A stretch of 64,000 nucleotides of DNA from Pseudomonas synxantha. Its GTDB lineage: Bacteria; Pseudomonadota; Gammaproteobacteria; Pseudomonadales; Pseudomonadaceae. Position 1 is the first letter of the stretch, and each line of letters begins with the position of its first letter. The notes under the pieces are model-generated. The model did no database searches. It saw nothing but the letters and a program-made list of their open reading frames with translations, and was not told where the DNA came from. The stretch lies in NCBI RefSeq assembly GCF_900105675.1, contig NZ_LT629786.1:4340001-4404000 (forward strand). The letters run 5' to 3'. The translations under genes were made by a program, and so were the position numbers. Of the stretch, positions 44,106 through 56,149 are shown piece after piece.

Positions 44106-45272
44106 ATGAACAGCCAAGTAAACGCCAACGTTGTCCACGAATCCGAAGCCCAGCGCCAACATGCACGGGTCAAAATCCCGGCCAAGCTGCGCTTCTTCAA
44201 CAGCGACCGCACGCCGACCGAAGCGCGGGTCATCGACCTGTCCGCCGGCGGCCTGGCCTTCACCGCGACCCAACCGCTCACCGTCGGCCAGGTGCACAAG
44301 GGCCGCCTGCAATTCGTCATCGATAACCTCGGCCTGGCCATGGATGTGGAGCTGCAGATTCGCTCCTACGACCGCCAGACCGGCCGCACCGGCTGCCAGT
44401 TCCAGAACCTCGATGCCCAGGACATTTCCACCCTGCGCCACCTGATCACCTCGCACCTGTCCGGCGACATCGTGACCATGGGCGACGTGCTGGCGACCCT
44501 GCAACGCGACAACTTCACCAAGGCACGCAAGGTCAAGGACGGCGGCAGCGGCATGACCGCATTCGGTCGCCTGCGCGCCGTGACGTTCAGCCTGGCGATT
44601 TTCCTGGTGGGCCTGGCCGCGTTCGGTTTTGTCTTCAAGTCCCTCTACGGCATGTACTTCGTCAGCCACGCCCAGGCCGGCCTCGTCAGCGTGCCGGGCA
44701 TGAACGTGACCATGCCGCGTGACGGCACCGTGCAGAGCTTGCTCAAAGGCGATTCGGTTGCGGCCAAAGGCGCGCCACTGGCGACTTTCAGCACCAGCAT
44801 GCTCGACGTCCTCAAGGGCCACCTGGACGAAGACCAACTACAACCGGCCAAGGTCGAAGAGCTGTTCGGCAAGCAAATGACCGGCACCCTGACCTCGCCA
44901 TGCGATTGCGTGGTAGCCCAGCAACTGGTCGCCGACGGCCAGTACGCCAGCAAGGGTGATGTGATCTTCCAACTGGTGCCACGCGGCAGCCAAGCCAATG
45001 TGGAAGCACGCTTCACCTATCGCCAGTTCGGTGATGTGCGCCCAGGTACGCCGGTGAGCTTCCAGGTAGCCGACGAAGAACAGGTTCGCACCGGCACCAT
45101 CGTCAGCAGCACCAGCCTGAACAGCGCCGACCTGTCCTCCGACATCCGCGTGCAGATCAAGCCGGATGCACCGCTGGACAGCACCTACGCCGGCCGCCCG
45201 GTGGAAGTCACCAGCGACCGTGGCCCTTCCCTGAACTGGCTGATCGATAAAGCCATGGCTCACGGTCTGTAA
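44106..45272 (+). CDS. alg44: Alginate co-polymerase, c-di-GMP receptor
   Basis: 388 residues. N-terminal PilZ domain with RQHARVK (RxxxR) near residue 17 and DLSAGG (DxSxxG) near residue 43, so c-di-GMP binding is conserved. One membrane helix (AVTFSLAIFLVGLAAFGFVFKSLY, about residues 155-180) leads to a periplasmic membrane-fusion-like domain (VPGMNVTMPRDGTVQSLLKGDSVAAKG). Activates Alg8 and links the membrane to the periplasmic export complex. Confidence 0.95.
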   Translation: MNSQVNANVVHESEAQRQHARVKIPAKLRFFNSDRTPTEARVIDLSAGGLAFTATQPLTVGQVHKGRLQFVIDNLGLAMDVELQIRSYDRQTGRTGCQFQNLDAQDISTLRHLITSHLSGDIVTMGDVLATLQRDNFTKARKVKDGGSGMTAFGRLRAVTFSLAIFLVGLAAFGFVFKSLYGMYFVSHAQAGLVSVPGMNVTMPRDGTVQSLLKGDSVAAKGAPLATFSTSMLDVLKGHLDEDQLQPAKVEELFGKQMTGTLTSPCDCVVAQQLVADGQYASKGDVIFQLVPRGSQANVEARFTYRQFGDVRPGTPVSFQVADEEQVRTGTIVSSTSLNSADLSSDIRVQIKPDAPLDSTYAGRPVEVTSDRGPSLNWLIDKAMAHGL

Positions 45273-45286
45273 GCGAGGACATGCCT

Positions 45287-46804
45287 GTGAACTCTATTCC
45301 AACAACACCGCTGACCTCTGTGGGAGCCGGGCTTGCCCGCGATGCAGGCGACTCGGTGCATCAGTTGCACCGCAGCGATGCCATCGCAGGCAAGCCAGCT
45401 CCCACACAGAGCAGATCCCACACTGCCCTGGCTTATTGCGCTCTGGCACTGGCAGTGAGCCTCGCCGGTTGCGCCGGCCTGCCCGACCAACGCCTGGCCA
45501 ATGAAGCGCTCAAGCGCGGCGATACCGTCACCGCCCAGCAGAATTACCAGCAACTGGCAGACCTGGGCTACAGCGAGGCCCAAGTGGGCCTGGCTGATAT
45601 CCAGGTAGGTACCCGTGATCCGGCGCAAATCAAACAGGCCGAAGCCACTTACCGTGCGGCCGCGGACATTTCGCCCCGTGCCCAGGCACGCCTCGGCCGC
45701 CTGCTGGTGGCCAAGCCCGGCGCCACCGAAGCTGAACACCATGAAGCCGAAACCCTGCTGAAAAAAGCCTTTGCCAATGGCGAAGGCAATACCCTGATCC
45801 CGCTGGCGATGCTGTACCTGCAATACCCGCACAGCTTCCCCAACGTGAATGCCCAGCAGCAGATCAGCAAATGGCAAGCGGCCGGTTACCCGGAAGCCGG
45901 CCTGGCCCAGGTGCTGCTGTATCGCACCCAGGACACTTACGACCAGCATCTGGATGATGTGGAGCGCATCTGCAAGGCCGCGTTGAACACCACCGATATC
46001 TGCTACGTCGAGCTGGCCACGGTCTACCAGAAAAAAGCCGAGCCGGAAAAACAGGCCGAGTTGCTCAAGCAGATGGAAGCAGGCTACAGCCGTGGCAGCG
46101 TCACCGCCCAGCGCGTCGACAGCGTCGCCCGCGTACTCGGTGATGCCAGCCTCGGCACGCCGGACGAAAAAACCGCCCAGGCTTTGCTTGAAAAAATCGC
46201 CCCTGCCTACCCGGCCTCCTGGGTCAGCCTGGCGCAACTGCTCTACGACTTCCCCGAAATGGGCGACGTCGACCAGATGATGAAGTACCTCGACAACGGC
46301 CGCGCCGCCGACCAGCCGCGCGCCGAACTGCTGCTGGGCAAGCTCTACTACGAAGGCAAGTGGGTGCCGGCCGACGCCAAGGCCGCCGAAGCCCACTTCG
46401 AAAAAGCCGTGGGCCGTGAAGTGGCCGCCGATTACTACCTCGGCCAGATCTACCGCCGTGGCTACCTGGGCAAGGTCTACCCGCAAAAAGCCCTGGACCA
46501 CCTGCTGACCGCTGCGCGCAACGGCCAGAACAGCGCCGACTTCGCCATCGCCCAACTGTTTTCCCAAGGCAAGGGTACCAAGCCCGACCCATTGAACGCC
46601 TATGTCTTCAGCCAACTGGCCAAGGCCCAGGACACGCCAGAGGCCAATGACCTGGCTACCCAGCTCGAGGCGCCATTGACCCCTGAGCAACGCGCCGAAG
46701 GCCAACGCCTGGTGCAACAGGAACTGGCCGCCCGCGGCACCCTGGCCCAAAGCACGCTGCAACTGCACGCCCTGCAAGAAGAAGACGGCGAGGAATCCCT
46801 ATGA
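45287..46804 (+). CDS. algK: Alginate biosynthesis TPR lipoprotein AlgK, N-terminus carries a REPIN
   Basis: 505 residues. Periplasmic-facing outer-membrane lipoprotein built of TPR-like Sel1 repeats that places the porin AlgE. The lipobox LAGC (cysteine near residue 62) and the mature start [19 protein letters not shown] match AlgK of other pseudomonads. Unusually, a whole REPIN (45316-45410) lies in frame between the start and the hydrophobic core [17 protein letters not shown], giving about 43 extra residues before it (P. aeruginosa AlgK has a lipobox near residue 27). The start is taken as GTG at 45287, eight bases after GAGG; ATG at 45281 is only two bases after it. Stop overlaps algE by 4 bp. 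Confidence 0.9.
45316..45410. repeat. REPIN (CTGGCTTGC class) inside algK coding sequence
   Basis: Arms CTCTGTGGGAGCCGGGCTTG and CAAGCCAGCTCCCACACAGAG, enclosing CGCGATGCAGGCGACTCGG...GATGCCATCG. It is read through in frame as [18 protein letters not shown]... GKPAPTQS and sits just after the start codon. Confidence 0.9.
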
Positions 46805-52448: not shown

Positions 52449-52544
52449 AAATGTGGGAGGGGGCTTGCTCCCGATGGCGGTGTAACAGTCGCCATCTGTG
52501 CTCAATGACACACCGCTATCGGGAGCAAGCCCCCTCCCACATTT
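52449..52544. repeat. REPIN between algL and algI
   Basis: Arms AAATGTGGGAGGGGGCTTGC and its exact reverse complement, enclosing TCCCGATGGCGGTGTAACAGT...ACACCGCTATCGGGA. Lies 15 bp after algL and separates the lyase from the acetylation genes within the operon. Confidence 0.9.
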
Positions 52545-56081: not shown

Positions 56082-56149
56082 TTGTGGGAGCTGGCTTGCC
56101 TGCGATGGCGGTCTTGAAGGCGCCATCGCAGGCAAGCCAGCTCCCACAA
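56082..56149. repeat. Perfect 29-bp inverted repeat (REPIN) between algF and algA
   Basis: A 29-base arm starting TTGTGGGAGCTGGCTTGCCT and its exact reverse complement, with a 10-base loop (GTCTTGAAGG). The most perfect palindrome in the window, of the same class as the one inside algK. It would fold strongly in the alg transcript just before algA. Confidence 0.92.

Follow-up and report, generated by a model that had tools for sequence, protein, structure and literature searches.

The window, that is, the whole 64-kb stretch of DNA analysed, contains an alginate operon in which alg44 (44106-45272) is followed by algK, and its alg reading frames are open. AlgK is required for alginate secretion but not for viability, so the initial annotation of algK as an essential export gene holds for secretion only. 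From residue 51 on, the protein matches NCBIfam family NF038194 with a score of 806 bits, above the cut-off of 700; its signal ends in LAGC, and the solved P. fluorescens AlgK structure (PDB 3e4b) aligns to it from residue 65. Between the algK start and the hydrophobic core of the signal, the sequence holds a complete REPIN, in frame. The features of the locus, and two extragenic REPINs of the same operon used as controls, are the following.

45275..45279, + strand: Shine-Dalgarno-like GAGGA of algK (sequence)
45281..46804, + strand: algK, alginate-export TPR lipoprotein, 507 codons from ATG 45281 or 505 from GTG 45287 (open ORF, NF038194)
45287..45289, + strand: GTG, probable start codon (Shine-Dalgarno spacing, relatives, database proteins)
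45287..45318, + strand: 5' n-region ahead of the REPIN (sequence)
45319..45406, + strand: REPIN, translated in frame, residues 13-42 from the ATG (sequence, inverted repeat, class match)
45320..45343, + strand: 5' REP unit, variant 'A', PF13-like with one extra base (0 mismatches)
45383..45405, - strand: 3' REP unit, class PF12 (0 mismatches; class list of Nunvar et al., PMC3686654)
45407..45424, + strand: linker QSRSHT; its R45, counted from the ATG, is the last basic residue ahead of the core (sequence)
45425..45469, + strand: hydrophobic core, 15 residues to the residue before the Cys (sequence)
45470..45472, + strand: lipobox Cys codon, residue 64 from the ATG or 62 from the GTG (sequence; ends LAGC)
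52453..52540, + strand: control, extragenic PF1/2 REPIN in the algL-algI spacer (class match)
56084..56147, + strand: control, extragenic PF12 REPIN in the algF-algA spacer (class match)

Two codons compete as the algK start. The sequence ATG-CCT-GTG, with GAGGAC before it, begins 8 nt past the alg44 stop, which leaves 14 nt to the GTG. GTG 45287 is probably the start rather than ATG 45281, because it is better spaced from the Shine-Dalgarno-like sequence (8 nt from the end of GAGG, against 2 nt for the ATG), because locus L196 has ACG at the position of the ATG and keeps the GTG, and because the database proteins P0002 and P0003 start with MNP, which would correspond to GTG 45287. At the position of this GTG, loci L087, L140, and L147 start with TTG, a leucine codon. 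The initial annotation had placed the lipobox cysteine near residue 62, which is exact when counted from the GTG. It had also found no start between the REPIN and the core, and indeed there is no in-frame ATG, GTG, or TTG there: past the start, in-frame start-type codons occur in the window only inside the REPIN (GTG 45320, GTG 45356, and TTG 45365) or inside the core (GTG 45455).

The element itself had been placed at 45316-45410, which is right within a few bases. Its ends read TGTGGGAGCCGGGCTTGCCCGCGATG...CATCGCAGGCAAGCCAGCTCCCACA (45319-45406), and the flanking inverted repeat extends to 45311 and 45414. With class names taken from Table 1 of PMC3686654, the 3' unit belongs to class PF12 and the 5' unit (GTGGGAGCCGGGCTTGCCCGCGAT) is the PF13-like variant with one extra base that we call 'A', both without mismatch to their patterns. 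Like the REPINs and RAYT-associated REP doublets described in Pseudomonas (Bertels & Rainey 2011, PMC3116915; Nunvar et al. 2013, PMC3686654), the element is an inverted pair of GTGG/GTAG-tagged palindromes of described class sequence, close together and repeated in the genome. The 64-kb window holds nine matches to a related REP pattern, against a shuffled mean of 0.00; one REP pattern of another class had no match within it. In the own genome, the general REP pattern matched at 536+534 sites (control 0), and the algK element had 65 full or partial matches, itself included and with some places matched on both strands. The exact 5' unit is rare there, its 25-mer being found five times exactly and three times with one mismatch, algK copy included. 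What departs from the usual description is the location, which is not extragenic but in frame inside algK. By sequence and anatomy, the algK element is a REPIN in an atypical place. The TCCCACA at 45416-45422 may be the remnant of an older outer REP arm, judging from the nested elements described below.

We searched 398 Pseudomonas genomes for algK, of which 390 matched at a loose threshold, some through weak TPR matches only. The 220 loci compared comprise 30 from the genus search, 80 among the places listed, 30 from 40 genomes that were searched again, and 80 named loci, these last being the best 80 of 180 relatives. They yielded 182 distinct 5' ends, a sample weighted to the relatives of the window, in which some rows are strains of one species and to which two overlapping genome collections contributed. 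L217, with no recognised REP unit in a 60-residue signal region, was counted as REP-less, and L053 and L084 entered the REP-bearing group on the strength of one unit each, with four and three mismatches, respectively.

REP units lie between the alg44 stop and the cysteine codon in 132 of the 182 5' ends, with no recognised unit in the other 50. At least two units are present in 121 of the 132, and 191 of the 257 units match a class pattern exactly. Aligned across relatives, the extension is thus widespread and REP-derived; an ancient extension unrelated to REP sequence, which had been named as an objection to the initial annotation, is not what the 5' ends contain. The comparison also goes beyond that annotation, in that the feature is clade-wide, involves several REP classes that are sometimes nested, and is also found in algE of P. 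protegens-type strains. At least seven classes, assigned by comparison with the published class list (PMC3686654), occupy the algK site across the relatives, and they encode the following residues.

PF8-10: LWERACSR...REQARSH
PF14: LWELACQR...RWQASSH
A/PF12, the type in the window: VGAGLARD...AGKPAPT
PF17: CGEGACSRS...GSKLPRHK
PF13: VGAGLPAK...SRASPAPT
PF18: REQARSY...RRSELARES
PF20-like: VAAAAGC...SLRQRL

A PF17 REPIN follows a PF8-10 5' arm in L021, L031, L050, and L065. By eye, remnants of outer arms surround the type A element in L081, L087, L143, and L146 and the PF13 element in L185, L187, and L195, and the several insertion contexts and nestings are all in frame. The more distant sequences L210, L212, and L218 carry REPINs in other flank contexts. 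Empty sites occur in L086 (P. morbosilactucae) and L088 (P. chlororaphis), beside the PF18-bearing L085, L093, and L106, and the REP-less L180 and L193, which lie among REP carriers, look like deletions. Arms of two classes are combined in at least eight rows (B2> B1< in six, A3> B1< in two). Chimeric REPINs, with PF14 or PF12-like together with PF8-10 arms, were seen in L089, L091, L101, L108, L155, L160, L162, and L196, and they possibly arose by conversion of one unit. We had considered that PF1/2, the commonest class of the own-genome sample (135 of 170 REP units), was absent from algK. This was rejected, as seven of the 182 rows have a PF1/2-like unit with at most one mismatch (L027, L030, L042, L068, L073, L075, and L132; not the window).

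Whether such repeats are translated was judged from the reading frame, anchored on a conserved start motif, GAGGACATGCCTGTG. In all 120 REP-bearing rows with this motif, the length from the motif to the cysteine is divisible by three, over 16 distinct lengths and without an in-frame stop. The 12 REP-bearing rows without it were left out (L068, L084, L096, L100, L143, L146, L184, L196, L198, L210, L212, and L218). The motif also occurs in nine REP-less rows, all of them in frame. Length counts from starts chosen in the frame of the cysteine were dropped as a frame test because they are circular, as was the lack of stops in frame +0. In the other frames of the algK n-region, a stop occurs in all 132 REP-bearing rows (+1) and in 80 of them (+2). 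REPINs are not in themselves multiples of three, since only 17 of 53 in an 864-kb sample of the own genome have such a length. The control spacers, examined in the window and 30 sampled genomes with one locus missing at algF-algA, take all phases. Distinct lengths in phases 0/1/2 number 9/8/5 at algL-algI for all sequences and 7/6/3 for the REP-bearing ones, and 7/5/4 and 6/2/4, respectively, at algF-algA. As all phases are found at the extragenic controls, selection evidently holds the algK frame open through the repeats, from which it can be concluded that ribosomes read the algK REPIN. Judged by this comparison, algK translation starts upstream and passes through the repeat, as the initial annotation had proposed in describing a REPIN used as coding DNA within a long n-region.

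The opposite reading is that the start is mis-annotated, with translation beginning downstream and the REPIN being 5' untranslated sequence. In its favour, most REPs lie outside genes (in SBW25, a gene is overlapped by 14 of 1,067 16-mers; PMC3116915), an earlier study took the N-terminal REPs in ORFs of P. putida, C. koseri, and S. maltophilia to be for the most part non-coding (PMC3733652), and a start-type codon lies 13-22 codons before the cysteine in 75 of the 132 REP-bearing rows (ATG in 56, GTG or TTG in 19). However, the other 57, the window included, have no ATG, GTG, or TTG at this distance, and for this reason a later start cannot replace the upstream one in the window. The start motif is common to REP-bearing and REP-less relatives, the chosen start lies after the first REP unit in none of the 132 rows, and the frame is kept over all the lengths described above. 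We regard mis-annotation as very improbable, although internal initiation may contribute in some relatives, not in the window. Still more improbable is that the element inserted recently in this strain alone and impairs its AlgK; an impaired copy was one of the possibilities named in the initial annotation. The n-region is indeed far longer than is usual in REP-less relatives, in which the cysteine stands at residues 19-27 in 45 of 50 rows, against 40-76 in REP-bearing rows. Nevertheless, the extension occurs clade-wide, the alg frames of the window are open, and mature AlgK is strongly constrained, so the idea of an impaired copy is not supported.

The residues encoded by the repeat appear to be of little consequence. 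The pN/pS of the REP-coded n-region is 0.61 in class A (129 equal-length pairs) and 0.76 in class B (570 pairs), whereas the first 75 mature AlgK codons give 0.056 and 0.088, respectively. By this measure, the REP-encoded residues are barely constrained and mature AlgK is under strong purifying selection. Signal function was judged from the core, charge, and lipobox, and on these the signal presumably works: LAGC ends it in 155 of the 182 rows, and the net charge before the core is positive in 87% of REP-bearing rows vs 54% of REP-less rows.

The position of the elements points to the junction between the two genes. The first REP starts at a median of 48 nt from the alg44 stop (IQR 47-53, range 26-115, n = 132), and in the species plotted in PMC3733652, REPs between ORFs of the same direction sit near the 3' end of the upstream ORF. 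REPs are also present at algL-algI in 22 of 31 sequences and at algF-algA in 26 of 30, window included, with classes that vary between related genomes. A second junction of the operon supports this placement rule. In P. protegens FD6 (L100) and in L096, where the algK stop overlaps the algE start, algE carries an in-frame PF20-like REPIN in its signal n-region, and algK of each has one too; genome G061 (L393 near 9144) has the same algE arrangement as P. protegens FD6. In 503 kb around algK of the 80 named loci (the best 80 of 180), the algK n-region accounts for 122 REP units, and the four found elsewhere are all in algE. Only two of the 170 REP units in the 864-kb own-genome sample, those of algK, were judged by eye to be coding. 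Our home-made gene caller had flagged 25 units of the own sample as an open frame into a gene, and in G061 20 such units plus two 'inside' a gene. Apart from those of algK and algE, the flagged units of both were dismissed by eye, for want of an upstream start, for a clear later start, or as spurious calls; among them, one 'inside' unit (L389, three mismatches) was taken as chance, and a G061 unit outside the alg operon (L398:1679), which fell under the N-terminal rule of the script, as a spurious gene call. A protein search for REP-coded N-termini returned seven matches, namely six AlgK or AlgK-like proteins and one acyl-CoA dehydrogenase (P0007), the last probably with a mis-called start.

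The site seems to be mobile. L017 and L127 are 97.6% identical over the core, yet their 5' alleles are of types A and B. On an 810-nt tree built without support values, in which 23 of the 182 rows have a shortened algK part and recombination is likely, Fitch parsimony gave 53 changes of class and 21 of presence (shuffled means 91 and 44). For these reasons, counting gains and losses on this tree was dropped, and these figures serve solely as a sign of mobility. A change of class at algK may result from insertion, gene conversion, or allele exchange. A REP-less signal allele of the MSALRxLPVPLALAIALAGC type is scattered among REP-bearing relatives (L036, L044, L054, L060, L072, L076, L083, and others), which suggests that whole 5' alleles are exchanged by recombination. 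Insertion is presumably driven by RAYTs. The own genome has two Y1_Tnp matches, one flanked by PF1/2 REPs and the other by none of the classes tested, and thus no RAYT flanked by the class of the algK element was found among them. The copy in the window may for this reason be a relic, inherited by descent or received through allele exchange. The first of these matches (L410, C1:1367597-1367803) has PF1/2 REPINs on both sides.

Another way to account for the recurrence is that the REPIN was co-opted as RNA, with a hairpin about 40 nt past the start that tunes algK translation or the stability of the alg44-algK mRNA and is kept for that reason. The initial annotation had raised such translational control, and the predicted hairpin is indeed very stable. 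Predicted folding from start to cysteine averages -85 to -114 kcal/mol by REP class vs -24 for the REP-less rows, which are shorter; per nucleotide, it is -0.45 to -0.54 vs -0.33, and its shuffle z is -4.0 to -7.1 vs -0.1. Placement is also narrow, with 24-60 nt from start to REP (median 41, rows with two or more units), and the arms vary less than the loop. Diversity in class A (15 sequences) is 0.017 and 0.030 in the arms, 0.27 in the loop, and 0.30 at mature third positions, and in class B (68 rows, anchored on the units) it is 0.093 and 0.138, 0.314, and 0.349, respectively. However, the extragenic REPINs of the same operon are equally conserved in their arms (0.000-0.029, with loops at 0.21-0.25), the search patterns require near-intact arms and so favour conserved arms at both kinds of site, and class B columns grouped by total length alone, which mixes classes and offsets, have no clear arm conservation. 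The 50 5' ends without a recognised REP, some of them apparently through deletion (L180 and L193), the rows with arms of two classes, and the similar REP occupancy of the extragenic sites also speak against it. We thus dropped arm conservation as a sign of hairpin selection specific to algK, and recurrence and class turnover as proof of function, since the algL-algI and algF-algA sites turn over too. A hairpin function specific to algK is not claimed, as class turnover and arm conservation resemble those of the extragenic sites and nothing points to one; the co-option of the REPIN as RNA appears unlikely, and the element probably has no dedicated regulatory role.

We consider it quite probable instead that algK contains a real, coding REPIN of an operon junction, which fell into the length-tolerant n-region of AlgK and persists in frame. 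REPINs would establish themselves where operon genes adjoin and be replaced there over time, and an element about 48 nt past the alg44 stop would fall into the n-region of the AlgK lipoprotein signal because the alg44/algK spacer is no longer than 8 nt, or 14 nt if the GTG is the start. This n-region may tolerate nearly any length or sequence provided that the frame is open and the core and lipobox are intact, and elements that persist would therefore be in frame and free of stops. Translation would start upstream, probably at GTG 45287, the ribosome would read through the hairpin, and the REP-encoded residues are predicted to be removed with the signal peptide at Cys62/64. On the side of comparison, the relatives display the frame constraint, weak amino-acid constraint, recurrence, and class turnover of such a history. 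A bolder version, which we hold as a tentative possibility at best, is that signal n-regions at tight junctions are a standing habitat for coding REPINs, where REPINs of many classes arrive again and again, insert into one another, and displace one another, and that they supply a basic n-region together with a strong hairpin past the start codon, by which the host sets the output of algK and, in P. protegens, algE.

REPINs, intragenic REPs, and palindromic repeats inserted in frame are already known. REPs and REP dimers inside ORFs, as in algK, were described in 2013 (PMC3733652), including different REPs near one recB site in X. campestris and X. oryzae. The N-terminal cases of that study are mostly possibly not coding, whereas conservation of the frame shows the algK case to be coding, within a signal peptide and across many genomes and classes. 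The Rickettsia palindromic elements (RPEs), reviewed in PMC10969869, are palindromic repeats inserted in frame in protein genes, and the algK REPIN is likewise an in-frame insertion in a coding gene. However, RPEs occur in many unrelated genes and in the mature protein, whereas the REPIN is coding in algK, plus algE in a few strains (in the 864-kb own-genome sample, algK only), and lies in a cleaved signal. RPEs are also set apart by name, being other sequences in another genus, and the algK units match Pseudomonas REP classes. Unlike usual REPINs, the algK element is coding, with start-to-Cys lengths that are multiples of three only, nested copies included. A literature search, mostly at title level and among openly available papers, turned up no report of REPs in AlgK or of REPs in signal peptides. 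The clade-wide, multi-class, and partly nested occupation of a signal peptide by REPINs, with a quantitative control of the frame, thus appears to be new.

REPs are extragenic by their very name, and where they overlap N-termini, a wrong annotation has been the usual suspicion; comparison among many genomes, set against extragenic control sites of the same operon, shows that in algK a REPIN-occupied N-terminus is translated. The empty, single, nested, chimeric, and deleted elements form a natural series in one gene. With this series it can be tested whether protein-targeting sequence can come from mobile repeats, and how the ribosome and the Sec/lipoprotein pathway handle a coding hairpin of very high stability and an n-region that is two to three times as long as usual.

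Three further observations concern individual loci. The 60-residue signal region of L217 contains a CCTGTAGGAGCGGCC stretch, maybe an undescribed REP class. The lipobox end of L125 reads LAGCAGC, an apparent small in-frame duplication. In genome G306 (C1:4704457-4705852), algK is split into two frames near query residues 332-348, away from the REP.
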